Assembly: GCF_003473485.1 (NCBI RefSeq)
Contig: NC_053046.1
Location: 134,001 to 198,000 of the forward strand
Reading direction: 5' to 3'
From: Medicago truncatula
Lineage: Eukaryota; Streptophyta; Magnoliopsida; Fabales; Fabaceae
DNA length: 64,000 nt
Part shown: piece by piece, positions 8,916-40,052 of the stretch
Layout of the letters: every line of letters starts with the position of its first letter
Numbering within the stretch: the stretch's first letter is position 1
Notes under the pieces: model-generated
What the model saw: the letters and a program-made list of their open reading frames with translations, nothing else
Told to the model about the DNA's origin: nothing
Database searches by the model: none
Made by a program: the position numbers and the translations under genes

Positions 8916-11002
8916 TCAGTATGGCGGAGGATAGAATCCTGAAAGAAAGAAAAAATGTGATAGAAATTAAGCAAGAGATGAAAATTGAAATGGTTGGCAG
9001 AGAGACAAGAATTACTTACCAGCGTTTGGAGGATAACCTGTAGGTGGAGGGTATGAAGGCGGTGGATAGGCTGAAGATGGAGGATAAGAGTGGGGAGGAG
9101 GGTATGGCGATGGTGGTGGTGGTGGATAGGGTGATGGATTGTGTGAAGCAGCAGGGTAAGATGGTGGTGGTGGATAAGCAGAAGCAGCAGCAGCAGGTAT
9201 TGCTGGATTGTGATAATTAGAGTGTGGTTGTTGCTGTGGGTAGTAGGAAGGAACCTGATTATATAACGGGACTGCCGGCGGTGTTGCCATGTAAGGAATA
9301 TGGCTTGAGGAGCCTGCAGGTTTCTGCAATATATTACCATCACAAACACACTTATTAATCATCAATTCCAATCCTTATATGTATGTAAATAAATATAAAT
9401 ACTGATGAAAATAGGTTACCTGGTGATTCACTTTGGCATTAGCATAATGCATTATGAGTTTCACTTCACCTGCGTGTCTGCCAACCAGACAGACAAAGAT
9501 ATAGGAATAATGCACTATCAAAACTTGAACAATAGTATCGGAGAATCTATCTATTATGAAAGCCGGAAATTCACAATATATATATGTGAAAATTAGGATA
9601 TAGTAATATGATCTAGACACAAATATGAATGTATATAATACTTGTAAAGAAAAGATGCATTGATATACTTCATTAATATATAATTGCAATGAAGCTATGA
9701 AGCACGGATATGGACACCGAACACAGCTAATAATTTGAAAAAATCACATATAATTAAGTGTAATTACAAGCGTCGTATCAGTGACACCGAAACATGCCTA
9801 ATCTAAGGAGTGTCCATACTTCATAGCGATGAATTTGAAACAGCCTCGCTTATATAATATCTTCTTTCTTATTACTCTCTTACATAAAAAAAAAAAAAAA
9901 ACACATAACATATAAGTCTAGTTCATCAAAAACAATTCTATCGACTATCTTAATTACATATGTGAGGTCTCAATAAAAATATATTTTAACAAAATAAATT
10001 AAAGGTAAAATTACACAATTAATCCCTTAATTTAATTTTAGGTAACATTTTCGTCCTTTATCTTTTTTTTTTTTTAACGATTTAGTCCTTTATGTTATAA
10101 AATAACAACATAGTTATCCTTTTTATGAAAAAAATAATCAAAAATTCCAAAAAAAAAATTCATCAAACTCATAGACAAACACAAATCTTCATCATACTAG
10201 CCTAGAAAATCAAATTTCATTGAAAAAATCTCATACAAAAATGATAAAATAGTGTCATTTTATAACATAAAGGACTAAATCGTTACAGAAAAAAGATAAA
10301 GGACGAAAGTGTTACCTAAAAAAGTTAAGTAACTAATTGTGCAATTTTGCCTAAATTAAAATATAATTTTGATGCGTGTGCGGGACTGATACATAGTTGG
10401 GCTTCATACTAAATAAATGAATGGGTAAATTAAATGAAGGTAGCAATAGCAACAGAAATAGGCATAACATATATACCTGCCATTTTTAGTTTGAAGTGGC
10501 CATGCAGAGTCATCAAAACCTTGAGAGAGAACCTTGTGCAATTGAACCTTTCCGGTGCCGATAAAGTCATCAGAGGTGACAGTATTGTAGTTCCAAACAG
10601 CGACATTGATCTCACGAAGGCCTTCAATGAGGGAAAACACAAACTTCTCTTGAAAAACAGGGTTTTTTCCACCATCTGAAATCAAAATTGAAGGAGTAAA
10701 CAAAAAGTCAAGATAAGGGTCAAACTAATTAACCTACCTACCTACCTACCTACGTACCTGTGCATGTTTTGGTTCGGAACTTGTTGGTCGCGTATTCAAG
10801 GCAAACATAAGGATCTTGTCTTGAAATCCATTCTGTGTCTTTCAATTTCGAGCAACACACCACTGCAAATCAAACCAAACGAACCATTCATCATGTCTTA
10901 ATAATAGTCAAATCAAATAACACTGTTGTTGTGTTATGTTTGCTTACCAGTAACCTCGAGAGGTTGCCCTTGGATCCCTGCTATCGTTCCGCTAGACATC
11001 AT
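8916..11002 (-). CDS. C2-domain, proline-rich SRC2-like protein (copy 1)
   Basis: Six exons join in frame: 10948-11002, 10758-10862, 10477-10675, 9420-9477, 9020-9323 and 8916-8938, all GT-AG, giving 247 aa. Residues about 10-135 form one C2 domain (PLEVTVVCCSKLKDTEWISR, DPYVCLEYATNKFRTKTCT, DDFIGTGKVQLHKVL), expected to bind phospholipid, perhaps with calcium. Residues about 140-247 are a low-complexity Tyr/Pro/Ser tail of SYPPP-like repeats. This layout matches the plant SRC2 family, small membrane-associated proteins induced by cold or elicitors. The start is the first of two adjacent ATGs. Unlike copy 2 at 38376-40052, exon 3 is uninterrupted. A Mutator MITE sits in intron 3. Confidence 0.88.
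10004..10351. mobile_element. Mutator-type MITE in intron 3 of C2 gene copy 1
   Basis: A 348-bp element begins GGTAAAATTACACAATTAAT and ends ATTGTGCAATTTTGCC. It is flanked by perfect 9-bp duplications TAAATTAAA at 9995-10003 and 10352-10360. Much of it is a foldback: CCTTTATGTTATAAAAT on one side pairs with ATTTTATAACATAAAGG on the other. It is non-autonomous. The matching intron of the paralogue (38986-39383) lacks it, so it inserted after the duplication. Confidence 0.85.
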
Positions 11003-20441: not shown

Positions 20442-20574
20442 TCTTTAGTAAAAAAAAAAAAAAAAAAAAAAGTAGGTGGGTTAATTTGGGGATGACGTGA
20501 CGAATAATAATATTTAAAGAAGACACACACGATACGGGTGATGTGATCTGTGTGCATATATTCAACTAGTAAAA

Positions 20575-20596
20575 TACCCGTGCATCCGCACGGGTA
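20575..20596 (-). other. Helitron 3' terminal hairpin
   Basis: TACCCGTGC, a four-base loop, then GCACGGGTA: a perfect 9-bp stem that ends 9 bp inside the CTAG terminus. A GC-rich hairpin here is the conserved 3' end signal of plant Helitrons and is thought to mark the stop of rolling-circle strand transfer. Confidence 0.9.
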
Positions 20597-21160
20597 CTGG
20601 TTGGTCGGGGATGATTTTTGGTAGTTTAGATTTGACAAAATGTATTTGTAAACAGTTTAACTTTAGAACATTCAAAAGAAAATTATTTTGAAAATTAAAT
20701 TATATATGTATTTGAATTTTAGTAATGAAAATGTTTAGATTGTATTAATGTATGATAAAGGAAAATATTAATATTAAATTATTTTGAAAATTAGATTGTT
20801 TGATTGTGATAGTAGTACAAAGGAAAATATTAATATAAACGTATTTTGATTTAGAAATAAAATTTCGTAACACAGTTATATTAAAACGTTAAATATTTGT
20901 GGTCGCAAACAATGTTTATAGATAAACTTATATTGTTGATTGAACTTAATATTTATAGATGATAGGACAAATTAATTGGTGGATATAATATTAAAATAAG
21001 TAAGGAGAACCTGAATATTAAAGAAATGTTATAGAGGCACAGTGGAAGTCGTAGAAAAAGGACAAAATCTAAGGCATATAGTTTCTATAACAATAAATTA
21101 TGAAATGCGTAGTAAATGTTAAAAGTAATATTACAATAATAATTTAGTTTGTAGTAGTAG

Positions 21161-22076
21161 TTAATAACGTCTATAAACTTTTTGAACAAAAATAATGTTT
21201 TTGGCCATAATTGAGTCGCATTTAAATTGGAGTAGACTTTTGGGAGAAATGTCATTGTGAAAGCAGAAAGATCTCCAACCACGTGTAATAATCACAGTTC
21301 TTGTATTGCTTTTGACATCCTTTTTGAAAACTAATTTACAAATAGTTATAGTATTTGATCCTCCACATACTCGTAGATACTCATGGTTTATGGTTTGGAA
21401 AAAAATTCCAAATGCAGGTGGTAGAATCTGAAATGTATCACATGGAGTAATAAATAAAATAAGATAATTAATCAAAAGTAACCGTTATTGTGTATAGATA
21501 ATTAAAGATGGAATGTTTACCAATTTAGAAGTTATTGGCGAAGTATCTGGCATATCAACTTCGAATGTAAGATCTTTAAGACATGAAGTAGTTAATGTAT
21601 GATATCGTGGATATTCATTGTTTGGTGTAGAACCGTTGAAGAGTTTGATCAGGAATATACTATTTCCTACATATGTAAAAGACATTAGTGGATTTGATGT
21701 TATATTATAATAATTTCTGAACTTGTCCCAACCCCTTATAATTATTGGCATGAGCATAGATTTGTTAAATTCAACTTCATGAACATTTGCTAAACCATCA
21801 ATTAATGTCCATTGGTCATCAAGTTCATCAAAAAGTTCAGCAATAGTAAGGGGGTCTAATTCACAGATAACCTGTTATATAAATAAAATGATTTTAGTGC
21901 AATGTAATCATAATTTAGTAGAAAAATAAATTAATAATAAATAATAGATATACCTCTGTGCAAACTGCAATGAAGAAAGGTCTATTACTTTCAGAAGTCA
22001 TCATTGGAGCTATGCTGCAATTAACTGATCTTTGATTTTGTGGTAGTTCACTAATTAATGAAGAACTTGATTCCAT
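21161..22076 (-). CDS. Two-module B3-like DNA-binding protein, Helitron cargo
   Basis: Three exons, 21954-22076, 21521-21871 and 21161-21427, join in phase 0 with GT-AG sites to give 246 aa. Two B3-like modules are visible. The first, about residues 30-125, ends PIIIRGWDKFRNYYNITSN then SIFLIKLF. The second, about 150-246, runs from SKLILPPAFGIFFQTI to ITRGWRSFCFHNDISPKSLL and IIFVQKV. The pattern of a strand, GW..F, a polar loop and a final F.V.V strand is typical of plant B3 (REM-like) domains, which bind DNA in the nucleus. It is the gene closest to the Helitron 3' end. The call rests on fold-level pattern, not on a search. It appears intact. Confidence 0.65.
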
Positions 22077-22881
22077 TGTAAGTGTGTATTGGTCTGCTGT
22101 GAGCTATTGAAGTTGTATTTATAGTGTCCATGTCCAATTCAAAATTTTACTATACTTATATGAATAATACAATATATTATTATACGATGTGTATTAGAGT
22201 AGTTGGGAAAATAAATAAAAGTATGTTTGGCTTTAAAAAAAGTTATAATGAAGTTTCCTGATAAAATTACTTGTTTTGACAGCTAAGAGAGTTGGTCAAT
22301 AAAATGTTTTGTGGGAAAGAGTTATATTAAAGCTGAGCATGATATATAGATGTGCAGTACACCATGAATAGAGATATTGAATGGTCATTCATGAATAAAA
22401 GATTTTGAATGGTCATGTCACAATTGTAAATGTTTTTTATTTTGTTGTTTTGTGAAATCAGGAATCTTTGCAGGGTATGCAATAGTTGATGTGAATTGAT
22501 GTTTTGTTCTTAATGATGTATTATTTAAATTGAAAGAAGTAGTAGTTTTTTTTTTTTTGAAGAAATGAAAAAAGTAGAAGTTAGATATTGGTCTTCTACA
22601 TTAGTCATACAAATTGAATAATAAAATCAAAATGGTCATTATATTTAAAAAAATAACAAAATTAAAGGAAAATAATTACATCAGAGGCTAAAATAAATAA
22701 ATTAAGTGAATAGATTTGTAAAATAACTAAATTAAAACCTATAAAGCAAAGTAAACTATTAAGAAAGAAATTGGACGCGGTGAAAAAATTAGGAGACATA
22801 AATAGTCTGAAGAGGTAGATATTGATGAACTTATAGTAGCATTTATTGTAAAGAAGAATATCTAAAGTATTGTCTTGAGTA

Positions 22882-23034
22882 CTCCATCAGTTTAAAAATA
22901 TAAGCAAAATTTATTTTATAGGTTTATTTATTTATTGATGTATGTGGTTTATAATGGAAAAGTGAATTTGGTTATAGTAGCGTTAAATGAATGAACCTAA
23001 AAAGTGAATTTTACTTATATTTTAAAACGGAGAG
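22882..23034. mobile_element. Stowaway-like MITE inside the Helitron
   Basis: About 150 bp with ends CTCCATCAGTTTAAAAATAT and TATTTTAAAACGGAGAGA next to TA dinucleotides, as in Tc1/mariner MITEs. It lies in the upstream region of the 170-aa B3-like gene and is missing from the duplicated upstream region at about 25250. Confidence 0.55.
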
Positions 23035-23371
23035 AATAATTTGTTTTGATTAACAATAAGCTTAGAAATATAGATTTGTATTTATACTTTTTGTCTGTTG
23101 TGTTTGATTGAAAAGTCATATAATAATTTATGCTTTCTGTACGTTTTTTTGGAAGAAATATGGGCAAAGTTTGTACGGCATATGTTTACTATAATAATTT
23201 TTTTTTTTTTGTGAGAGAATGTGTACTATAATAATATATTGTTGTATATTATAATAATATATAGTAGGGATATTATTTGACCCTTTTTGATGCTTTAAAT
23301 AGTAACATTACTGATAAATTTTCTTATACTTTGTGTTCCCAGTATAGTAAATTTTGTTGTGGAATTTGAAA

Positions 23372-23960
23372 ATGTCTTCCTCCAGAAAGTTAGATTTTGA
23401 TGCATCAAGCAGCAGTGTTGATACAAAAAAGATTGATGTAGCCGAAGATGTTGTAGCAGAGAAATCTGAAATTGTAATTGTTGACAATTACCGTGAGCCA
23501 GTGGAAGTGCCTCCATTTTTGAATGTTAAAAGAAATTCATGGGAGATTATTGTGAATGAATATCATGTACATCCAAATCACAAGCTTGTAAGTATTATTT
23601 ATATAAGTTTCTTTACAATTTTAAATTGGATTAATTCTAAAATAATTTATTTTGAATATGTAGCGTCTCCCTCATCACCTTACATATGAAGGTGTTTTGA
23701 GTTCTGATAAGAACATCATGCTCACTCAACTTGATAGAGATCAAGATGCAGTTGATGCATTTGGTTGTGAGGTTGTTGCTGATGAAGTAGATCCTCATAA
23801 GAGATACATAGCTAGTGGTTGGCATGCATTTGTTAAGGCAAGTCAAGTTGAAGTTGGTGATAGGTTGTTGTTCTCCATTGAGAATTATGATAAGAATATC
23901 TACGTTCGTTTTGTCTATGAAAGTGACATTGACAGTGAATATGATAATTGGAGTGATTAA
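23372..23960 (+). CDS. Single-module B3-like protein, Helitron cargo
   Basis: Two exons, 23372-23587 and 23664-23960, give 170 aa. The first about 50 residues are Ser/Asp/Glu/Val-rich and probably disordered. Residues about 55-155 look like a B3 domain: RLPHHLTYEG, then DAFGCEVVADE, then RYIASGWHAFVKASQVEVGD and RLLFSI..IYVRFV, the last part being the classic GW..FV..LkvGD.l.F B3 pattern. The tail is acidic. The start is the first ATG in the frame; the frame remains open upstream through non-ATG codons. The gene is transcribed opposite to RepHel and RPA within the same Helitron. It appears intact; the name is an inference from pattern. Confidence 0.65.
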
Positions 23961-25778
23961 GATCTTTAATGTAGTTTGTTTTAATTATTATTATGTTAAA
24001 ATTAAGGCTTGAAGTTAAGTTGGTGTTTAATTAGTTATATGTATGACGTTTTGTTTTTTTTTTTTTAAGGATAGTTATATGTATGACGTTATCATGTTGT
24101 AATGTATTTTTATTTAATATAATATGTGTTGTTGTAATGCATTATTAATGTTGAGTAGTCATTAATGTATGAATAATAATTAAATTGGCAACCAATGAGA
24201 AAATTTATAATTAATAGTTAAAATAATAAAAGTAACGACGACTGATCCTACCGTGAAAATAGTATGAATAGATGTTAAATTGGCCCATTAGTATTTTGAT
24301 ATATTAACTTTCAACAAATTGAAATAATTTCAAGAAGGGAATAGTTAAAAAAGTAGTGAAGACGTGAATGAAGTAGATAATGAATGAAGTATAGTGGAGA
24401 AAAATGAAAATGAAAATGAAATGAGAATGTTTTAAAACTAAGAAAAATGATCAAATTGTGTAACAGAGATAACTTAAGCGTTCAAAATGAATCGAATTTT
24501 ATTTAACAGACGAAAACGATAATACCTAAATAGTTAAGAGACCAAAGATTGAATGTAGCATAAATGTAAACATGCATAAATTTTTGAACAACATTGTTAG
24601 TGGTCTATACACATCATATAAATGTATAAATGTATATATGAATGATAGAGAAAAATGGTTTTAAGTGTTTTTGTTAGTATTGGTCTATTATACAATGTGC
24701 TAAATGCAAAGTAGAATATATTGAATTGAGAGTGATAAAAGTAGTATTAAGTAGTGTTTTATATCTTAGTGAATACAATATTTTTTTTTTTTTGGTAGAA
24801 GTGAATACAATATTATTGTGGAAAGTATAATATATTTTGTTGTTTTGTGAAATCAGGAATCTTCACTGATACATGCAGGGTATGCAATAGTTGCGGTGAA
24901 ATGATGTTTTGTTCGTAAGGATGTATTATTTTAATTGCAAAAAGTAGAAGTTAGATATTGGTGTAACAGTTAGATATTGTTCGTAAGGATGCATTACTCA
25001 TACAAATTGAAGAATAAAATCAAATTGGTTATAATATTAAAATAAATAACCAAATTGTGAAGTGTAAAAAATTTATACAAAATATTAATTTGAAGACTAT
25101 TATAAGACAAAATAAAATCAGTGGCGTAAATAAAATAAAATTAAGTGAATAGATTTGTAAAATAATTAAATTAAAACCTATAAAGCAAAGAAAACTATTA
25201 AGTCTGAATAGGTAGATATTGATGAACTTATAGCAGCATTTATTGTAAAGAAAATATGGTGACTATTATAAGACAAATATTTTATCCTATTAAGTTTTAG
25301 GCTTCCAATCTGCCCATGAAATTACTAATTAGGATAAAAATCAAATGATTAATATTTTTATGGGTAGATTGGAATGATTAGTAATTTCAGGGACAAAAAT
25401 TTAAATGATCTATATTTGCAGGAACGAAAGAGCTATTTAAGCCTAAGTTTTATAAAAGGTAAATGTGTGTTGTTGTTTGGTTGATATATGTCGAACATTA
25501 ACTAAATAATATGTCGATCATAAAAATGATATACCGTGTCTGCATGTTCTGTGATTTGCATTAAAGTAAGATTCGTTTGTTAATTTGTTAAAAGCAAACA
25601 GTAGCAGTCAACGTTACAATCAATAAAAGTAATTTTCTCAACTGCAAACGTTACAATTGTTATCTACCATCATAACTGATAGTACCCATTGAAAAAATAA
25701 TAAAAGTAAATAAGTTACAGTAAAATGTTAATGCCATATATTTATATAAATAAGTGGTATCACCAAAGGAGTAACGTT

Positions 25779-26432
25779 ATGCTTGAAGAAGAAAGTGCAG
25801 CCAGCCAAAATGTCATCTTGTTCCAGGTTTGTTCCAGTTGGCTATTGTATATATAATGTTTTAGGACATACATGATTAGCCAATGATATAAATGATAAAT
25901 TAGTTGCAAAAGATAATGTCTATTATCTGGATTAATAACCAAATTATTTAACATGCAGTGTTGATATAGATCCTGATTATGCACAATTTCTTGCGACATA
26001 CAGTCCAGCTGAATTTGGCGAAGAATTTTGTCAATTTCATGCAGACTGTACCCTAGAGACTCTATCATGGCAGTTGATTTTTAGTGAATCCAATCTGAAC
26101 TCTCCAAGTGTGGTGGTAAGGGTAATTAGACAATATTAGTATATAATGTTTGAAAATATTAATTATGATTTATATATGGTCGTAAGGAGGTTAATAATTT
26201 TGTTGTAGATTATTCGAAAGGACATTAACATGCTTACCAATATATTAATTATTGATGAAGCTATTGGATTTTCATGCATGTGTGAGCTAGAAAATTTATC
26301 AGTGAGAAATACATAGGCTATGGACGGCAGAATTATGTTGAAGTAAAAGATCTGGCTGTTGGTGAAAAGATGGAATTAATGGTCTCGGATAATGGAAGAT
26401 TTCTGAAAGTTAAGAAAATTTGCCAAAGTTAG
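25779..26432 (+). pseudogene. Broken tandem copy of the B3-like gene
   Basis: A start at 25779 (MLEEESAASQNVILFQ) is followed by exon-like pieces: about 25959-26115 (DPDYAQFLATYSPAEFGEEF) and 26209-26432 (KYIGYGRQNYVEVKDLAVGE then KMELMV). The end repeats the B3 pattern of the gene at 23372. The pieces do not share one frame: the first acceptor leaves a phase mismatch, and a one-base frame change is needed near 26290. The upstream region matches that of the 23372 gene, so this is its degraded duplicate. Confidence 0.55.
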
Positions 26433-26938
26433 TATTGATGGTGTTTAGGAAGTGAAAATGTTATGTGTTAAAATAATAAAATGGTTGTTTGTATTGTAGT
26501 ATTTTATTTGGTGTGGTGCTTATGTTGTTTAAAAACATCTTGAATCTTATTATAAGCATGTTAAGTTGACTATGTTATATAGTATTTTGATCATAGAAGG
26601 CACTTATCATATATTTTAGAGTAATTGTGTGTAACAGACATACCACAATAAAATTCCAGTCAGTTGAATGAATGCATTAAACAAACATATATAAATTTAG
26701 AACAGATTAACAAAGCTCCGATCTCAATACATATTATTTATAAGTTAATATATGATAACTTCGTTGTTTGATTGTTCCAGGTTAGACTTCAATACTTGGC
26801 GTTACTGGTAGGGATGGTTGCTTTCCAAAACCTGTGTAAGTACACATATATTTTACGAACTGTAAGTGGCTGAATATTGATATTGAGTTAAGTAACTTGA
26901 AAAACAAAAAGGAAGATAGATATTTGAGTACTTACATG
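26433..26938. other. Helitron spacer between the B3-like pseudogene and RepHel
   Basis: AT-rich, no gene seen. It would hold the 3' untranslated region of RepHel (from the minus strand) and the end of the broken B3-like copy, so these two are convergent. Confidence 0.5.
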
Positions 26939-29900
26939 CTAAACATATTGAAATACTTCCTTATAAACCACATTTGTAGTAGTTTCCTTTGGATTTTTGT
27001 TTTCATCATGTATCAAAATTTTGATACCTTTTTTGCTTGTTACCCTTGATATGGCAACATAAATTTGACCATGACTAAATACATCTCTTGGTAAATATAG
27101 ACCAACCCAATCAAGAGACTGCCCTTGAGATTTGTTAATTGTCATTGCATATGACACAATTATTGGGAACTGTCTCCTAGATAATTTGAATGGCCATGGA
27201 GATTGTGATGGTGACATGTCCATCCTTGGAATGTATGTAACATTACCATGATGTTTACCCCCCATAATCTTTGCTTCTATTACATGAGTTGCCAGCTTTG
27301 TAACAATCATTCTAGTACCATTACACAACCCTTCAGTTTGATCCAAATTCCTCAAAAGCATTATTGGAGCTCCAACTTTTAATTTGATTTGATGATTTGG
27401 AAGTCCTGAAGTGCGTAATGAGCTTAGAAATTCTGGAGTTAACACTTCAATAATGTTGTTGTCATTAATTTCGGATCTATCAATTGAATTGGCACTATAG
27501 TAAACTCTTTCATCACCTAAAAATTGTGCATAAAACAAAGTAATTGGCTTTTACTTCTGTTTATATATTAATATTGTGCATAAAATAAATAAATTGAATT
27601 TTACCTGGCATTAAATCAAGAACGTAATCATTGATTTGATCAACTACTTCAATAGTTGATGCCAATATTGCTCTATTCTTCAAATATTCATAAGATCTGT
27701 AATTATCCAAGAAATTTGGATATGTACTTGTCACAATTGCTAGAATTGGATCTTGAAAATCCAAGATTAACATGTCCTTAGGAATTGTTATCTCAGCATA
27801 ACCGTCATTAGGTTCTGCAATTTTCCCTTCACCTACCATTAATAGCCAATTTGAAAATTCTGAAATCTGCAAATTTTCTTCAGGATTAGAACCTTGTTTT
27901 AATCTCATGTTCTGTGTCAAAGTGAGAACTTGACAATGATCCCATATATATGAGGCACTGATGGAAGCATGCACAATATCTGATCTATTTCCTCTTGGAA
28001 CAACCGGAAGAATTTGTCTAAAATCTCCTCCAAAGACAATGACCTTTCCGCCAAAAATTGTGTCACACTTAGTTATGCCATCACCCATTATATCTCTAAG
28101 TGTTCTATCCAAACACTCAAAGGTATATTTATGTGCCATTGGTGCTTCATCCCAAATAATCAATTTGGTTTGCCTAAGTAGTTGTGCCAGATCACTATCA
28201 TGATCAATTTTGCATGTTGAATTTTCAAATGTTGGGACTGGTATCTTAAACTTAGAGTGTGCAGTTCTCCCACCAGGAAGTAGAAGGGATGCAATTCCGC
28301 TGCTAGCTACTGTGAGAACAATCTCATGTTTTGATCTGAGTGCACTTGCAAGTGTTCGCCACATAAAGGTTTTACCTGTTCCACCATGACCATGCAAGAA
28401 AAAAACCCCTCCTCTTTGATTTTGAACAGCCAACATGATTTTGTCATATATTTGACTTTGTTCATCTTGATATAGTATAAGAAAGAGAAATCAAATGTTA
28501 GGTGAGGGATTCACTTAATACAACACTTGATTAATGGATGAAAATATATTAAATTTTACCTGTGAGTGATGCATGCAGTTGAGCAAATTCCTGTTTTAAG
28601 GCATCTGTGTTATAGTTGCGCTCATCATATATAAGTCTATTGCCAAGCTGCTCTAAAACATATCCTTTAGGGTAAGGAATTGAAGGGAATTCCTTCAAAC
28701 TACGTCTGCTTGATTGTAACAGTTTTTCAATCTCAAGCAAGGTTAAATTATGCAGATCTTCATTAGAAAGGTATAACTCTGTGTATTGAATAATAAAAAT
28801 TGATCCCATTAGTTAATTTATGAAGTACTGATATGTAGTATATCCGATATGGAGTTGAAACAAATACATGCATGTAATAGAAATTTATACCTTGATTGTT
28901 AGCTAAAATTCTCTGAGCATATAATACTCCATCTGACAACCAATGGACGGTGCTACGCCATACATGATTTGGTCTATTCATTGCTCCAGATAATAGCAAA
29001 ATAACAAACAATCTTCTAAGGAAATAGCCTGAACCCCATTGATATGCTTCTCTTATGGCTCCTATAAATTCCCTATCATCATCCAAAAAACCCATGGCGA
29101 AACATGCATCTCTAAAACAATGATACTGAATTTCCCCAACTTTGCGAATTTCTTCATAAGTAGTTGGTCCTTTGACAACAGTTAACATTAATCTCAAATA
29201 GAACAACTCTCCGGTAGTTGGAGGTACCCATATTAGTCTACCGATAGTAAATCCTCTCTTCCTTGGGGTCCAGGCTCTGTTTTTTTTGTTGTAAACAAAT
29301 TTGGTTACAAACTGACCATAAGTGAGTTCTCTGGCTGCCACATATTGTTGATTTGCAATTAGCCAGGCTGTGAACATGGATTCTGTAACACTTGCTTTTT
29401 CAAGTACATTTTCCATTCGAGAGTGATCAGTAAAGTATATTGCTTTCTCTCCGACCATATGAAAGAACATCCGTTCAACTGCAGGTTTACGGCCGTGAAT
29501 TGGGAAAGAGTAAATTCTCCAACACGCTTCACTTGGAGAAATATACCTACAATCAAGGTATTGTTTGATTTCATCTATGGGTTGTTTTTCAATTCTTGAT
29601 TGTTGATTAGATGGCACAATTTGTGCTGTAATACGATCATAACCTTTGTGAATGTACTTGAATAAGTACTTAATTGAAGTGCTCTGGTTACACCATTCCA
29701 TGTTAATATGAGCTTGATATTTCAACAGTAAAGTAACATTATATGGAACAACATGTCGATTATCCAAGCTCACACCATTTTTGACAATTGTGTGTGTAGT
29801 AGCACTCCTCTTGTAGACTGGATAACCATTATGATCCACAATGGTTGTTTCATTAAACTTTTTAGGAAAGAACTTGGAACATTTCTTATCTTTCATGCAT

Positions 29901-32900
29901 GGTGACTGCCACCGAGCCTTACCACATGGACCATGAATCATATGACTCCTGACCAAATTGTATAGTTCATTGTGTATCTTAGGATCTGGTATTTCTGCTG
30001 AAATAATCTTGTCTATATCTGCAGGTGTTGGATATTTGCTTGTTGGATGTAAGAACACCAAGATATGAGCATGTGGTAACCCTCTTTTCTGAAACTCAAT
30101 TGTGTACATGTCTGTCAAGTCCAATAACTTGTGTTAATACCATTAACAAATAAAGATTATTTAGAAATTTGAAGAAATGAAATTATGGTTGACAACAAAA
30201 TACTTACATGCTAATACTTTACCAAGTATATGTCTTTTGGTCAAGTCTTTCATAAGTTCATCAAACTTGATCTTGAATACTCTAGCAACAATATCTGGAC
30301 GATCCTGTGGTTTCAAATTATATTGTGCAAGTTCTCTTTTGATTTCAGGCCATGCTGGATTGCATGTAAATGTAATAAAGATGTCAGGAAACCCAACAGC
30401 ATTTGAAATAGCCATACCATCAAAATACAATTGATCCATGTATCTTTTACTACCAACAAATGTTGATGGTAACACTACCCTTTTTCCTTTCAATGTTGGT
30501 CCACTTTGGTTATTTGTGGTAGGAGTTTCTGCTATCTGTCTGTATTTTCCTACCCTCAACTTCGATTGATTTCTCCTTAACCAATTAAGCCTCTCGGCTT
30601 CCATCATTGTATAACCATCACAACTAAATTGCTGCAATAATTTCCTTGAGCACAACAAAGTAAGTGCCTCACCTTTTCTTCGTTGCAGTCGAAATGATAG
30701 CCAATGCATAATTGTCAACTTTTTCTTTTTTGTAATGTCTGTATCATCTACAAAGCGTAGCAGTATTGATGGCCGATATCCATCCTCACCATATGGAAAA
30801 ATGAGAGGATATTGGAAACTCAAGTAACTTGCATGAAATTCATCTATTCTTTGCAGATTTCCAGACTGTCCTTGCATAATTATATCTCTATATGAAGCAG
30901 AGTCAATATCACCCAAAACTAATGCAGCAACTTCGGAAACAGTAGGTTTGTTGTATATTCTGCCATCAGTTTTCCTGTCTGCAATTAACTTTAATTTCAC
31001 ATCTTGAAAATTAACATCATTTAGCATATCCCTTGCCATTCGAAAAACCTTTGCATGGACATTGTTCTGATCAAGCATTAATTTGAGCTTCTTGACAATT
31101 TCTTCATCTATATCTTTATTAGTCCTATATAAGATTGATCATATGAATGAGTAAATTTTATGTTAAGTAAAAGGGAAGATATAATTACTACATAAGTAAT
31201 TGCGTTAGTTATTAATTACCTGAAGCTATTCATTCGATTTGATATTTCATTATCAGTGTCGAAAATGTATAGCTGAGCATATTTAGGACTATCCCCTGGC
31301 AAAGGCAACAGACTTCCAACTCTGTGACATGTTTGTCCTTGCATTCTTAAAGTTGGTGGACCTTTTCCATTGTTAATTTTAGTATCCATTTTCATGCCAG
31401 GTGAAGTAAAAGAAAACATGGCATTGTATGTCCTTATATTTGTTTGGAAATTTTTGGTAGCTGGTGATTGGTTTCCAAATAACAAATCTTGCAAAAGTTG
31501 TGGAGGTTGTTCTAAAAGAGGAAGTTTTACTTTCCCACCTCCGCAACATAACTGAAACTTAGGTACAGTTGAATGCCTTGACTTATCCTTTCTTTCTTGA
31601 TACCACATCAAGGCTCCACACATTTGACACTCCCAAATAGGATCACCTATATCAGAATAAACTGTTTCATTTTAACGAAAAAAATAATATGTTAGTATAA
31701 CAATGTGTTTAAGTAGTAAAAGTAACAAAATGTACTAAGAATAGTTAAAGTTCCTTGAGTACTTACCTTGTGCAACATTGTCTACAACTTCATCAACTTC
31801 TTCAATGTCTTCTGATGAAGTATCATCAGAATGTACTGATTGATCAGTATCATCAGAATCATCTTCTGATGAAGTAGTATCTGAAGATCGAGTTGGTGTT
31901 GAGGTCATTGGTAGATGAATGATGTTCGATGAATAGTACTGTCCATCAGTAGTGGGTGCTTTTCTTTTGTTAGTATGATGTACTCCCACTCCATTTGTTG
32001 TTGGTTGTTGTGCAGAATGTTGCAGACTTACATTTGAAGTAGAAGTAGAAGGTATTTGATGAAATATGGAAGCATGTGGGTTTATAATCTGCGGATCTGT
32101 ATTTTCTTGGTTGTTTGGTTTCTTTCTTTTACCATTGCGGTGAACTGTCTCAGTTGATAAGTCCGTCTGAATTGACATTGCATGGTAGTTTTGTTGTTCA
32201 AAAGTAGAAGATGCATAATTACTTTGTATTGGCTCAACAGGTCTTGAGTTGAAGGTGTTTGGATGATATGGTGTTCCATGAAATGTAGAAGTAACTGGGT
32301 TTGGAATACTTTGATCAAAACTATTTTGTGTTCGTGGTTGTGTATGAAGCTCAGTTACCTTGTTAGAGATAGTGGGAGATTGGAAAAAACTTCGGACATT
32401 TGTTGAGGTTAAGTAACTTGTAACAAAAGGTAGTGGATTGGTTAGAGTAGCCAATGGAGTAGAAAAGGGTGGCTCGTGAATTTCCTGTTGTTTTTTTTGT
32501 TTTCTCTTAGCATTGTTTTGATCTAGTCCAGTAGGTAAAGATCTTGTTATAGATGGTATTCCGTGGTATTGAGGAGCAACTGGGTGTAGAAAATCTGGTT
32601 TAGCAATTTTCTTGGTTTTTGTATGTTTTGTTATGACATTTTTGTTGTTTGATTCAACAGATGTTCGAAGACAAATGTTGGTGGTAGGGGTTTTGTTCTT
32701 GGAAGTAGCAGCAGATGCAGTTAAAGCAGGTCCAGGAATACATTTATCTGTATCTGCAAATTTGGTAAGAAGATTGATTCCAGCTACATGTTTCCTTTCA
32801 GGTAAATTGGTAGGTATTATGAAATTGGGTAAATTTGGGGAGCTATAGTTTTGATGAAAGTATGATGTAGTAGGAATGTTGAGTACAACTGATGTTATAT

Positions 32901-33075
32901 CAGTAAGTGGTGTTGAATATACAGATTGTTGATTTTGTTGGAGTTTGGCATTGGCATTGGCACCAGAACTTGGACCTGGGGATTTTTTAGGCTTCTTAGT
33001 CTCGAGTAAAGTTCTTCTTCTTTGCCTTCTTTCTGCAGACCGTCTATTAGATGGTTCCATACATTGTTTGTCCAT
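26939..33075 (-). CDS. Helitron Rep-helicase (RepHel transposase)
   Basis: Seven exons join in frame: 31767-33075, 31220-31646, 30208-31124, 28891-30111, 28560-28778, 27605-28465 and 26939-27516, giving 1843 aa. Residues 1-436 are low complexity, with three basic KRK patches and an acidic end. A Cys-rich segment near 440-480 (CQMCGALMWYQ, CCGGGK) follows. The HUH Rep domain shows motif 1 FITFTCNPAWPEI, motif 2 GLPHAHIL (metal-binding HxH) and motif 3 YLFKYIHKGYD with paired tyrosines. The C-terminal PIF1/SF1 helicase shows Walker A GHGGTGKT, Walker B IIWDEAP and the late motif YAMTINKSQGQSLD. It nicks and unwinds DNA for rolling-circle transposition. All key residues are present and no internal stop is needed. 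Confidence 0.9.
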
Positions 33076-35115
33076 GTTTTTGACAATGGTCTACATGAAA
33101 GTACAGAAACATTATGTGCAACAGACTACATGATGTGCAATATTTTAGGATGCATATTTAAATGATTTAAGTAACAAACAATGCTTCCAATGATCCATGT
33201 AGCATTGCTATTATTAAATCATATATATAATATGAATTTAATAAGCTATAATTTATAAGAGTAAAATCATGTAAACTTAAATAACCTAATTTGATTGTGA
33301 AACCCAGTTAAAATTGGAGCCTAATGATCAGTTTCTTGATGACAATATGACATAATAATGTGTTACTATTTTGAGTTCCTAAAAATGAACAGTTATATTG
33401 GTATTTCTCTAAACTTGAACTAAAATCTTAACATATAGGAAACAATTTGTATCATACCTGGATGTATAAGCAGACCTGAATGGCAAAGCAGGTTGAATGG
33501 AAAGTTTCAGTCCTCCAATGTTCTTCTTATCCCTGGTAAGGAAAACAATATATATGTTGGCACCTTTAATGAATCAGTAGACATGTAAAAGTATTATAAA
33601 AATGTTTAGACTATATTAAATTTTTTGATAAAACTATATATTTAGAGTCTTGTCAATTATTTTATATAGTGTAAAAGCAAAAAAGGGATAATGGAAAATT
33701 GAAATAGACATGTCTTACATAACACGGGTTGCAGAGTAGTAAAAAGAGGCAAAAGACTGTTCACCATGGTACATTCATTAAATGAGTAGCACGACTTGCT
33801 ATGCAAATTTTCAAAAGGTCTTCTCCTAGAGAGATATAGGTTTGTAATGATAGTCTTTGATGTGTAGCTGTAATTAGGCAAGAGCACATCATTCAAATTT
33901 AATTATAATATAAGAAAACTGAACCAATTCATTGTGAAAGTGTGATCCAATATAAATGATAGGGTTAAACTTAAAATTAAACAGGAACCAACACATACTT
34001 TTAGTCGTTGTAAAATTTGTATTTGTTTAATTGTGCTTAAACTTTTAAATTTGTAACTAATTTAAAGAGTGTCTTACGATGTTATGAACATGTATGTAAA
34101 AAAATCTTTCAAAAATTTATAAGTTTAAGCATAATTAAACAAATTTTAATTTAACAGGGACTAAAAACATTAACAGAAAATTTTATAGGAACTAAAAAAT
34201 GTGATTTATTTTTATAGGGACGAAAAACAAAACTGCAGATTTTTATAGGGACCAAAAACTTAGTTAGAATGGAAGCAATAATATTTAACAATTGCATCAT
34301 TACTTGACATTGTTTATACGCATCAGTTGAATGTTTATTTGTTATTTAATAATAAAAGGAAAATGAACCAATATATATGTAAACGTTCAAGATGAAGTCA
34401 ATATAACATTGAGACTGTTGAAATCAGCTATAGGCATGATAAGAGGATTGTGTACACTTGAATTGAGTTTGGGAAATTTTATGATCATATATTGTTGTAT
34501 AGTAATTATTATTAGAAATATTTATGAAATTAGTAAATTATCTGGATTCTGCAAATATAAGTCCTTTATTCTTGATAGACATGGTTGTTTGAATAGATTT
34601 GGATTGAAGGGGGGTTTAAGATTTGTGGAAAAAATACAATATCTTATAAGGGTTTTATAACACAGAAAAGTTAATTCCTTAACACAAAACTTATGTGTGA
34701 ATTAAATCTATAATAACGTATAATATTTTACTATAAGTTGATGAGTTTTTGAAAGTATTTGGAGGATATACAGGCTGTGAGCATTTAAGAAGGTAAGCTG
34801 ATACTTGTGATGTATTGTTGTATGAATAATGAAACATAAGGTATATTTGTTAGGCGTAATGTAACGAACATAGACATATCATAACTCTTACATAATCATA
34901 GATAGTATTCAATAGTGGATAAGGAAGGTAGGTACAATCACTTGTTTAAAAGTTTGTTTCCAAGTGATTGTCATGTACTAATAATATTACAAATCAGCAT
35001 AAAAGTAGTAAATGGTTGGACATTTTAAAAGTAGAATATAGTATGGAAATAAAGCATATGAGAATGCAACAGCAAGCACGTTGTTGTTGCTATGGTCATA
35101 TTGTGAAGACAGCTT
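33076..35115. other. Helitron interior spacer with an RPA exon fragment and foldback repeat
   Basis: No full gene. About 34410-34560 is a worn, shortened copy of part of the RPA-like gene around its sixth exon (36410-36600): GGCATGATAAGAGGATT and GATTGTGTACAC words occur in the same order. About 34020-34155 is a foldback (TTGTTTAATTGTGCTTAAAC facing GTTTAAGCATAATTAAACAA), followed by direct repeats of TTTTTATAGGGAC. An exon-like stretch on the minus strand near 33470-33535 (AACATTGGAGGACTGAAAC) may be a 5' exon of RepHel. Confidence 0.5.
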
Positions 35116-37738
35116 TCACTTCTTTTCAGTTTTGATGACCTTAACCCTCTTGGATGAAGATTGTTTTGCCGGAATGATTTCTTCAAATAGTGGAGGATTA
35201 GGAAGCATGACTGGTTGAACCAATGTCATAGGTGTAGGAATATCAAAGGAGGGATCTTTGTTCAATTTCAGCTGAAGCTTATCACTAATTGGTGTCAATT
35301 GGCTCAAAGTATCAGGGTCGTTTTCTGCGGTTCCAGACAACTCCTGCTGAAAGACAAACAGAAATAACATCGACGTTTATAAGTAGGTTAATTGCCATTT
35401 AATTGTTGAAAGAGATTATACAGAATTAATGACAATTTGAGTCAGATTAAACTTACAGCAGACATGGTAACTTCTTCAGTCAAGGAGGTATTATCATTAG
35501 GCTTATCAACACCAACAGATTCATTTAGCAGAGGAATAACCTGTTAAAACTCAAACAGTTAAGGTGCGCATGGTCTCCTCTGAAGTATGTATATATGTTG
35601 ACATAGGGTATTGAAGATAATTGATTATGTAAGATAGACAAACTTGACAGTGGTGTATATTACATTATAAGTTGCAATACCTTGGCATTGGGGAATTTAG
35701 CCTTGACCAAATTAACTAAAGCATCAGCGTCTCTGTAACAGACAACAGAAGTTGTCTTCCACTTTGGCTGCCACTTGACCTTGAAGACATATGTCTTTTC
35801 ACCAATGCCATCCAATAGCATTGGATACTCAAGTCGGTTTGTAATCCCAGCCTATGACATAGACATATATATTAGGAGTTAGACGTAAATATCGTAAATT
35901 GGTTTAAAGCATACCAGTATATAAAAGGTAATATTTAAAACCTGAATCATGTTAGTGCGGAGCTGAGCGGCAGAAATGCCCAAAAGCTGTGTGGCCTCAC
36001 GATCCCACATAACAAAAGTTCCTTTGGTATTCTCATAGGAGACATTCAGGTCAAGTTTATACCTTTGTTAAACAATGTATGAATCCATCAAGTTAAAAAC
36101 TGAGAAGAACTCTAAAATCACATTATAGGGGTAAAGTATTAGATATATACCTAACAATCTCTGTCTCAGTATTATGGCCAGACTCGCATGTGTATGGAGG
36201 ATTGTCACCCTTGGCAATCTTCCCACATTTGAAGCATGCGAAATAGTACCAACCAAACTTAGTTGAGTTAACTTTTTCCACTTCAGCCACAGTGACACAA
36301 TATGAAATCTGGAACGAATAAATCACAAGTCATTATAAAAGCTATCTAATGTGAAATAGTGTGATATATATTTAACCGCAATTCAAACATCTAAAAGTAC
36401 CTCTTGTAGTTGAAGTATATCAGCTAGAGGCATGATAAGAGGATTAGAGAGCAAGTCATCATCAGTAATAAACTGAGAGCTAGATTGGGATTGTGTACAC
36501 ACTAATTGAGTTTGGGACATTAACTGGTCATCTTTGGGCAAGCTATATATATATATATAGTACTTGAAATTAGTGTACAATTAGTAAATTGCAATAATTT
36601 TGAAATATATTATGAAAAGTCAGAATGAAACTTGCCTTTCCCTAAACCTCTTGATCTCAGCTATGTCTTCATTTATAAGCAACTTCGTAGCACTATAAGT
36701 ATTTGTGACACTAAGAGGGTATTTGCCTGAAAGTTGTTCTTGTTAAATTTATTTTATGGTGTATATCATCTAAAAAAATAATGGGACCAATAATAAAACG
36801 CAACAACAAATATTAAACACCAACCTTCTTCCTTGATCTTGCCATACTTCAACATAACAATAATGGGACCAGTTTCTTTGTTTTCATTGTTAAACTTTAT
36901 GAACTTTGCAGCATAATCCTCCCAAAGAGTGCAGTTAAGAGAAATATCACTGGACTCATATTTGATTGGTTAGATAAGTCTTAATAAGATAATACATAAT
37001 AAATGTATCCAAAAAAACATTATTACATGTAACTAACCTTAGGTCTTTCATCAGAAAATTAACCTGTAGCTTTTTACCAGTTCCAGCCATAACTTGACAA
37101 TATCCAATTTCATGAACATACCCTATGACATCTAAATAACAAAAACATTCAAATAATCATTATATTGTATATATGATATGAAACGTTTAATCCAATGTTA
37201 AAAAATTGTAATGACATACGAACTAATAGATCAGCACGCCATTTCCCAGCAATAATCTCAGCCAAGGGCTTGAACTTCATGTTAGGTAAGGGGATATCAT
37301 GGACATTTGCGTCTACAGCTGTAGTTCCACCAGTCCATTTCAACTTGTACTTGTTATCAGATGCTTTGAATACCAGGTCATTTGGAAAGACCTGAAAGTT
37401 GCTTAAAGTATAAGTTGAGTTAACCTTAATAAGTTTCTCATATTCAGCCCTGTATGCCGTTGGAATGATAACTTGAATGTCGGTTCCCTGTTCAACAGAT
37501 CAAATAAAGGGTAACAGTAACCCAATGGTTAAGTAAAAATTATATAACTTTATAAGTGAGGAAGAAAAGTTAATATTCTAAACTCTAACGACCATAATAC
37601 CTTGGCATCAACAATAACCATTTCCATGTGCTCCATCCCATCCTTTACAACGCTCCATTTGTCTGTAACCTTAACAGCAACTTTCCAAAAGTCTTTCTTT
37701 TCATTGATATCTCTCAAGAATGCAACTGGTCTCAACAT
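35116..37738 (-). CDS. RPA1-like single-strand DNA-binding protein, Helitron-encoded
   Basis: Eleven exons: 37601-37738, 37220-37487, 37038-37131, 36825-36949, 36636-36726, 36401-36542, 36151-36308, 35942-36062, 35681-35851, 35457-35540 and 35116-35346. They keep frame throughout and give 540 aa. Three OB-fold regions match RPA70 DNA-binding domains A, B and C: about 1-110 (VAFLRDINEKKDFWKVAVKV), 125-240 (VIGYVHEIGYCQVMAGTG, LNCTLWEDYAAKF) and 280-430. The C domain has a zinc-ribbon-like CFKCGKIAKG...YTCESGH. The tail ends in a basic KRVKVIKTEKK. Intron 5 uses a GC donor (AAAG/GCAAGT); the others are GT-AG. RPA-like genes are known passengers of plant Helitrons and may coat single-stranded intermediates. 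It appears intact. Confidence 0.87.
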
Positions 37739-38375
37739 ATCAGCTGATTATTGGTAAAAGATTACAGCAAATAAGTTAGGCAGATAATGAATTCAATAAT
37801 GCAACCATAATGAAGAGCATGCATTATGAGATGCAATAGAAACTGAGAATTTAACCTTGAAAATTCTGAAGCAGATGTTTGAAAAATCAAATATAGATCT
37901 CGAAATCTTGTAGTGGTAGTAGTTTGAAGTTTGATGTTATGAGTAGAAGAAATAAATATTTGATATGTTACATTATAGTGTATTATGGAAAAGAGTGAGG
38001 GTGGTGATTTGATACGGTAGCAGGTGAACAGTATAAAGTAAAAGTTGGTGATTTGATTCAAATTGTGTTATTGTTTTTTGTTGTTAACTGAACTGAAAAT
38101 AGAAACGTCATTGAAGTAGTTAGAATTGAAGGGAACACAAAGTTTGAAGAGGAAAATAAACCAAACTAAATAAAAGATGACATCATTGTAGCAAACCAAT
38201 TTGTAAATGTAGTCAATTAGTTGGTAAAAGTAATTTTTAGACAAAGATTACCCCTAAATTAATGACGTGTCATAAGGGTAGATTGGGTGCATATAGGATT
38301 TTCCACCACGTTTAGTTTTCATAGGATAGGATAGGATTGATTCGCTCGCTCCTAACAAACTCAACTCAACTCACG
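37739..38375. promoter_or_regulatory. Shared divergent region: RPA-like gene versus C2 gene copy 2
   Basis: The 637 bp between the two start codons contain the Helitron 5' terminus at 38282. The part 38283-38375 is pre-existing host DNA and the rest is Helitron. The C2 gene therefore has only 93 bp of its own upstream sequence, and any promoter element further out must be Helitron-derived. No unambiguous TATA box was assigned. Confidence 0.6.
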
Positions 38376-40052
38376 ATGATGATGTCTGGGATTCAAGGCC
38401 AACCTCTCGAGGTTACTGGTAAGAGCAATTCAGTTGATTTTACTCTTTGACTTTGTTTTGATTTTATTATTAAGAGATGATGAATTGTTCCTTCCTTGTT
38501 ATTGTAGTCGTTTCTTGCTCGAAATTGAAAGACACTGAATGGATTTCAAGACAAGATCCCTACGTTTGCATCGAATACGCTTCCACCAAGTTCCGAACAA
38601 GAACATGCACTGGTAATTTCAATCCTTCTTCTTCTTCTTCTTCTTCTATGACTGACTTTGTTGACCGTATTTGAATCGTTGACTCTTTCATTCAATTCCA
38701 GACGGCGGAAAAAACCCTGTATTTCAAGAGAAGTTCATACTTCCCCTAATTGAAGGCCTTCGTGAGATCAATGTTGTCGTTTGGAACAGCAATACCGTCT
38801 CCTTCGATGATTTTATCGGCACCGGAAAGTAACTATATTCACTTCACTACTTCTTATCAATCATTATCTATTACTCTATCACACTATTCATTCTCTGTCT
38901 TATTTTATGTTAGGGTTCAATTACACAAAGTTCTCTCTCAAGGTTTTGATGACTCTTCCTGGCCACTTCAAACTAAAACTGGCAGGTATATATGTTATGC
39001 TTATTTCTGTTGCTATTGCTACCTTATTTTGCCCCCCCCCCCCCCAAATTATAGATGAGACATGCTTCATACACTTGTTTCTTAGATACAACTCATTCAT
39101 GCTTTTTATCCAAAATAATCCTAGTGACAAATTCACAACAGGCAACACTTGTTTTCACTTCATTATAATTATTATACATTAATAAACAATCATCCATACC
39201 ATCTTTCTTCAACATTTTTATCCTATAACTTTTCTCAACTTATCATATTCTTAATTTCTAAATTTTCATTTATCTTTATCACACCCGTACTACAGATCTT
39301 GGATTCATAGATAGATTCTCCAATACTACTGTTTAAGTGTTGATACTACATTATTATGACTATGTCTGATGCATCTTTGACAGACACGCAGGCGAAGTAA
39401 AACTCATACTGCATTATACCAATGCCAATGCCAATGCCAAAGTGAATCACCAGGTAACCTACATTTTCATTACTATATATATAATATAATAATTGGAATT
39501 GATCTTAATGAGTGTGTTTGGGATGCTAATATATTGCAGAAACCAGGCTCCTCAAGCCATACTCCCTATACAGCAATGCCAACGCCGGCAGTCCCATCAT
39601 ATAATCACGTTCCTTCCTACTACCCACAACAACCACACTCTAATTATCACCATCCAACAACACCTGCTGTCGCTTATCCACAGCCACCACCTTACCCTGC
39701 TTCACATAATCCATCTTCTTATCCACCATCCTCAACATATCCATACCCTCAATCAGTGTCATCTCCCTATCCACCACCCTCATCATCATCACCATACCCT
39801 TCATCAGTGCCATCTCCCTATCCACCAACCTCATCATCATCACCATCACCGTACCCTCCTCCCCACTCTTATCCGCCATCTTCAGCTTATCCACCACCAT
39901 CATACCCTCCACCTGCAGGTTATCCTCCAAACACTGGTAAGTAATTCTTGTTTCTCTGCCAACCATTTCAATTTTCACATCTACTGCTTTAATAATTTTT
40001 TCCTTTCTATTCACATCCTTTTTCAGGATTCTACCCTCCACCACCATATTGA
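38376..40052 (+). CDS. C2-domain, proline-rich SRC2-like protein (copy 2)
   Basis: Seven exons, 38376-38418, 38508-38612, 38702-38828, 38914-38985, 39384-39453, 39540-39936 and 40027-40052, give 279 aa. The C2 domain (residues about 6-130: PLEVTVVSCSKLKDTEWISR, DPYVCIEYASTKFRTRTCT, DDFIGTGKVQLHKVL) is nearly identical to that of the gene at 8916-11002. The Pro/Ser/Tyr tail is longer because of an extra SSSSPYPS-type repeat block. Exons 3 and 4 together are 199 bp, exactly the single exon 3 of copy 1, so the 85-bp intron 38829-38913 is unique to this copy. Intron 4 holds a 14-16-base C run near 39034. The start is the first of three ATGs. The Helitron ends 93 bp upstream. Confidence 0.88.

Follow-up and report, generated by a model that had tools for sequence, protein, structure and literature searches.

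B3-like genes in a RepHel-bearing Helitron lineage of Medicago truncatula

Plant Helitrons have so far been described, in the portions of the literature available, with a RepHel gene and, often, an RPA gene. We analysed a stretch of 64,000 nucleotides of Medicago truncatula (the window; C5:134001-198000, on contig NC_053046.1 of assembly GCF_003473485.1), which contains a Helitron encoding an RPA-like protein, RepHel and two B3-type proteins with intact frames (genes A and B), and searched the 430 Mb genome (42 contigs) for its relatives; gene A is also present in other elements of this lineage, often together with a paralogue of it. The RPA-bearing plant Helitrons (PHRPA), among them the Mothra sister family of rice, resemble the window element in combining RepHel with a resident RPA-like gene, in their 3′ hairpin and in having non-autonomous relatives, but, in the part of the source at hand, their extra gene is the RPA gene, together with a captured open reading frame (ORF) of 96 amino acids in a non-autonomous element (PMC4683698).

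On the side of the host, the closest proteins are the REM-type members of the plant B3 superfamily. Gene A belongs with B3 by profile and has two modules, as do VDD, VAL, REM12 and REM13 in the accessible text of a study on the recruitment of Pol IV complexes by REM proteins that have two B3 domains (PMC12270911); unlike these, genes A and B are transposon-encoded and very divergent, and their binding to DNA is only predicted. The VANC proteins of the VANDAL transposons, which are Mutator-like, offer a likeness of idea, since they are sequence-specific DNA-binding proteins encoded by a transposon. According to the sections available, VANC proteins remove silencing and their targets are often tandem repeats in non-coding parts (PMC5735166), whereas the Helitron of the window contains no such repeats of note. 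A 2026 review of gene capture by plant transposons is silent on B3 genes of Helitrons in the available passages on Helitrons and VANC (PMC13317346). Additionally, no description of B3 genes as Helitron genes was found among the listed titles and abstract beginnings of open-access papers on Helitrons with B3, REM, RPA or accessory genes. An earlier note on this DNA, made from the sequence alone, knew of no described B3 cargo in plant Helitrons.

The element and the genes under discussion are the following:

20566..38320, minus strand: Helitron, running from a 5′ end placed near 38320 (up to 38323) to a 3′ end at 20566; a second copy has both ends
20566..20596, minus strand: Helitron 3′ end, a 9-bp hairpin, TTTTA and CTAG, next base T
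26939..33075, minus strand: RepHel gene, several open pieces with Helitron_like_N, PIF1 and Pif1_2B
21161..22076, minus strand: gene A, exons 22076-21954, 21871-21521 and 21427-21161; 246 amino acids, two B3-like modules
23372..23960, plus strand: gene B, exons 23372-23587 and 23664-23960; 170 amino acids, one B3-like module

Gene A is composed of three exons with GT-AG introns and a stop-free frame. Its match to the Pfam B3 profile (PF02362), in two stretches, scored 30.6 bits, barely above the cut-off of 30.1. In an alignment of the window's gene with seven homologues, 8/8 members matched Pfam B3 at E values up to 1 (best 6e-10), the score relative to the cut-off being given for the window's gene alone. 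A profile was built from 20 of 151 Pfam B3 matches, domains presumed to belong to host genes; against it, module 1 gave a probability of 96.4% with 16-17% identity, and module 2 a probability of 66% over 29 columns. In viral and prokaryote sequence collections no relatives were found. The earlier note had placed B3-like genes between RepHel and the Helitron 3′ end, at 21161-26432, and the coordinates fit; its description of an intact two-module gene of 246 amino acids holds for gene A. Its single-module gene of 170 amino acids, our gene B, has indeed a frame without stop, but the profile comparison that it had proposed left this gene under the B3 cut-off (21.6 bits, E 2e-4), only gene A of the two being above it.

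Gene A is found repeatedly beside RepHel. The matches used were the best-scored 150 of 210 candidates for gene A and 150 of 154 for RepHel, and the counts are lower bounds; clustering started from 92 gene A places out of 145 matches and 94 RepHel places out of 126, the remaining matches being taken as further pieces of the same loci. Gene A forms at least 56 clusters genome-wide, 20 of which have a RepHel domain no more than 15 kb away; under a uniform density this number would be 0.36. All 20 are on the strand of RepHel and 19 lie downstream of it, the only other one being at C2:21.37 Mb. A class of paralogues, 20-29% identical to gene A, is in a comparison by eye present in 11 of the RepHel-linked clusters, between RepHel and gene A in eight and beyond gene A in three (C4:16.36, C4:34.35 and C4:41.5 Mb); gene A is therefore often, not always, the last gene. 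Beyond gene A, 11 of 20 stretches (865 to 4001 bases) contain a Helitron 3′ hairpin compared to none of 20 reversed controls, at a distance of 304-829 bp in ten stretches and of 2.25 kb in one.

Twenty-two clusters were examined in detail, with L039 and L051, gene A homologues with partial or broken matches, excluded from the set. RepHel lies within 15 kb in 12 of them, a Helitron 3′ end within 0.9 kb in three (L014, L040, L049) and a match to the 3′ end of the window element 5-11 kb away in three more (L011, L019, L042), with four unplaced (L018, L043, L048, L050). Matches to the 3′ end of the window element number 23, the window included, and by eye ten of these have a homologue of gene A or B no more than about 12 kb away. 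The general pattern of a Helitron 3′ end occurs 762 times in the genome (372 and 390 by strand), and the backwards pattern 0 times.

A full-length gene A model, with an ATG and the same three exons (one of the models with a shifted acceptor), was obtained in 12 of the 22 clusters. These intact copies form 66 pairs, eight of which are near-identical and give noisy ratios of nonsynonymous to synonymous divergence (dN/dS) of 0.14-1.03, one being undefined. The remaining 58 pairs, between seven lineages and not independent of each other, have dN/dS values of 0.21-0.39, which is the range of purifying selection; a copy without ATG has a dN/dS of 0.51 against its closest relative, at a synonymous divergence (dS) of 0.10. 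In a neutral, substitution-only simulation the frames remained intact in 2 of 1000 runs at K 0.27 and in 0 of 1000 at K 0.5, 0.7, 0.85 and 1.0. For RepHel, three of 15 pairs are saturated and the remaining 12 have dN/dS values of 0.05-0.18.

The histories of gene A and RepHel agree in part. In trees of ten elements, both genes join the window element with C4:16.36 Mb and both recover a group of C5:23.73, C1:31.53, C8:25.3 and C7:14.34, while most other branches of the RepHel tree lack resolution. Between C4:4.52 and C1:19.86 Mb, gene A has a synonymous distance of 0.10 and RepHel one of 1.31; between the window element and C4:16.36 Mb, gene A stands at 0.27 and RepHel is saturated. Strict descent of gene A together with RepHel is ruled out by these discordant distances and, because the two genes disagree in this way, the elements have probably exchanged the 3′ part carrying gene A. 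The Helitrons at C1:19862432-19869121 and C4:4517042-4526910 are mosaics, with 92% DNA identity in the gene A region and 79% in the RepHel region.

The window element itself is present at two sites. The second copy, C5:17983050-18004643, has both ends in common with it and different flanking DNA, which sets the bounds of the element and its length of about 17.8 kb. The two copies are 99.5% identical from the 3′ end up to position 22487 and 99-100% identical across most of 29223-33005; in the second copy 22487-29223 is absent, and other sequence is present at two places, about 3.3 kb of it near 29930 and about 7.5 kb near 32438. Near-identical copies at two sites suggest that the element moved recently.

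Considering the B3 profile match, the repeated position and strand relative to RepHel, the conserved exons, the purifying selection and the near-identical copies at two sites, the B3 genes are, in our moderately confident judgement, long-resident and selected genes of this Helitron lineage, coding for predicted DNA-binding regulators that would act on the element, rather than random cargo. The intact copies would yield protein, the B3 modules of which would bind DNA sequence-specifically, and the target of the proteins may then be the element itself, whose genes they would most likely control at the level of transcription or chromatin state. Action on the element is the most economical reading because selection persists in moving copies and the genes keep a place close to the element end. 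Host REM proteins, for which dimerisation through one B3 module and DNA recognition through the other are predicted, provide a rough analogy. Between the two possibilities raised by the earlier note, that of functional passengers is favoured by the recurrence of gene A downstream of RepHel on its strand, by its conserved introns and by purifying selection. A part in transposon control, which the note had also suggested, would be plausible, and simple searches for a binding target were negative. If the B3 proteins are selected and element-encoded, a mobile element has retained genes of transcription-factor type over the long term, the lineage gives a concrete handle on how a Helitron controls itself or its host, and some B3 or REM annotations in such genomes may be transposon genes.

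Several observations weigh against a resident regulator. A scored gene A match within 15 kb is found at 20 of the 92 RepHel loci and at 72 it is not, and a RepHel match at that distance is lacking for 36 of the 56 clusters of gene A; Helitrons in general therefore do not need these genes. In the 22 clusters, the ten that yielded no full-length model comprise one copy without ATG, two truncated copies and seven without an intact model. Synonymous divergence is higher for RepHel than for gene A in 11 of the 12 measurable pairs, so that movement of gene A from one element to another may occur. Gene A paralogues of other elements gave six ORF pieces for comparison, three with a B3 match under the cut-off and three without a match. 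Single-sequence structure predictions of exon 2 of gene A and exon 2 of gene B, each taken alone, are of low confidence (predicted local distance difference test values, pLDDT, of 40 and 47), and the gene A profile had one match only among solved structures, to a ribosomal protein with an E value of 0.53, which we judged to be due to chance. As to a target on the element, the REM motif TTTTGCTTAT occurs 16 times in the window for 18 expected, without enrichment, no 8-, 10- or 12-mer of the window element exceeds the shuffle maximum, and the element contains no large tandem array, its repeats being small (longest unit 60 bp, 1.9 copies).

The short distance from gene A to the 3′ end in the stretches with a hairpin, and the fact that the last 55-73 bp of the window element are common to several other elements with A or B homologues, would also suit proteins acting in transposition and not in regulation, for instance by binding the 3′ end to guide RepHel. 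We consider this unlikely, since most RepHel loci have no scored gene A match nearby, the distant gene A lineages have only the 3′ hairpin and CTAG in common while their inner sequence differs, and the active wheat element Feng8, with a transposase of 1,676 amino acids, is described in the available text as required and sufficient for mobilisation (PMC13286980). A further proposal, drawn by analogy and in our view quite improbable, is that the two-module B3 proteins form a self-defence kit: resembling host REM proteins, which bring in RNA polymerase IV complexes and shape DNA methylation, they would occupy, or compete for, this pathway on the DNA of the element and let it escape silencing, as the Helitron counterpart of VANC, and the high-copy Helitrons with an ORF of 82 amino acids, described below, would be parasites or decoys.

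The relation to host B3 genes bears on the two rivals that invoke the plant. In a tree with the 20 presumed host B3 domains, which carries a long-branch warning, the sequences of each of the two gene A modules fall together in one supported group, set on a long branch. A close host donor was not found, 22 of the 56 gene A clusters having been examined. As the presumed host B3 genes are distant, a recent capture from the host is unlikely, and the alternative put forward by the earlier note, a captured host gene or exapted host regulator, is left unsupported by a module 1 that is just 16% identical to the presumed host profile and by the long branches. That the B3 genes serve the host, as copies exapted for plant regulation with selection at the host level, might be read from two intact copies, at C1:44.6 Mb and C6:21.196 Mb, that lack a RepHel match within 15 kb; we find it very unlikely, given that several mobile elements with Helitron 3′ ends contain intact copies, of which two are near-identical at different sites, and that a Helitron 3′ end comes after the C1:44.6 Mb copy itself. 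Passive carriage of recently captured host regulators in neutral decay, which the known capture of genes by plant transposons including Helitrons (PMC13317346, in its accessible passages) and the ten clusters without a full-length gene A model would allow, is the least probable of all and for gene A already largely contradicted by its dN/dS values, by frames intact where neutrality leaves 0-2 in 1000, by the repeated position relative to RepHel, and by the low identity and long branches just mentioned.

Gene B, which we likewise read as a resident gene of the lineage, runs opposite to gene A or RepHel not only in the window but also at C7:21.16 Mb and C6:21.2 Mb. Its dN/dS is 0.26 and 0.30 against two other copies, which are near-identical and give 0.96 against each other; for L025 an intact model was not obtained. 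In the tree described above, gene B clusters with the B3 ORFs of two further loci, L032 and L030 (98/89), and it is 31% identical to the L032 relative across 59 residues. Towards RepHel follows a third gene, and a repeat flanks gene B:

25800..26430 (about), plus strand: broken third B3-like gene, weak support
22469..22855, strand not assigned: direct repeat, copy 1, flanking gene B
24874..25252, strand not assigned: direct repeat, copy 2, flanking gene B

The third gene has stop codons in all three frames, so the earlier note was right in calling it broken; that it is a B3 copy is likely but weakly supported. In a shuffle test of 12 piece-by-target comparisons with 300 shuffles, two of its three pieces exceeded all 300 shuffles against the two halves of the B3 gene in L030, one of them narrowly (52 compared to a shuffle maximum of 51), and the remaining piece failed to beat the shuffles against that gene. 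The direct repeat, about 390 bp long and with gene B between its copies, consists of blocks 88-96% identical at a spacing of about 2.4 kb, and is perhaps the trace of a duplication or insertion of gene B.

The two loci related to gene B carry these reading frames:

L032:1441-2065 (C8:5796930-5797554): B3 ORF of 82 amino acids, 31.4 bits, over the Pfam B3 cut-off
L030:1504-1824 (C1:20421157-20421477): B3-like ORF, 29.5 bits, slightly below the cut-off

A Helitron 3′ hairpin comes about 350 bp after the L032 ORF. A DNA search for the family of this ORF gave 608 first-look candidates, 40 of which were scored (89-100% identity), and 33 of these 40 extend over the 3′ end as well as the region of the ORF; most of the weak matches to gene B show an open frame of about the same length (~82). 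The L032 Helitron family would be non-autonomous, because the longest open frame in 3.2 kb is of 114 amino acids. The B3-like ORF of L030 adjoins, on the opposite strand, a transposase ORF of the Mutator-like element (MULE)/FAR1 type.

Within the window element the genes are arranged, from 5′ to 3′, as the RPA gene, RepHel, the broken third gene, gene B (reverse), gene A (forward) and the 3′ end. The latter, at 20566, is the sole Helitron 3′ end detected in the window; the hairpin, a CTRR terminus and insertion before T are those of Helitrons, and T follows CTAG in 2/2 copies. The consensus of Helitron 5′ ends starts with TC. The 5′ end shared by both copies is GAAAACTAAACG, with GAAAAC and not TC, its position being set from two copies only. 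Pfam profiles place the RepHel domains at 26939-31078, with Helitron_like_N (E 2.5e-47) and PIF1 (E 5e-86) in adjoining open pieces, as in a Helitron RepHel. Upstream of the Rep domain, an ORF of 446 amino acids (31735-33075) has no Pfam match at E up to 1. The remaining gene is:

35116..37738, minus strand: RPA-like gene, multi-exon, splicing read by eye from the sequence

It lies between both element ends, as in RPA-bearing plant Helitrons. A search with PF08646 missed it and DUF223 detected it, at 52.7 bits for a cut-off of 24.6, while Rep_fac-A_C and REPA_OB_2 score under their cut-offs. Finally, the stretch 38388-38615, just outside the Helitron, is 79% identical to 10755-10978 in the opposite orientation.

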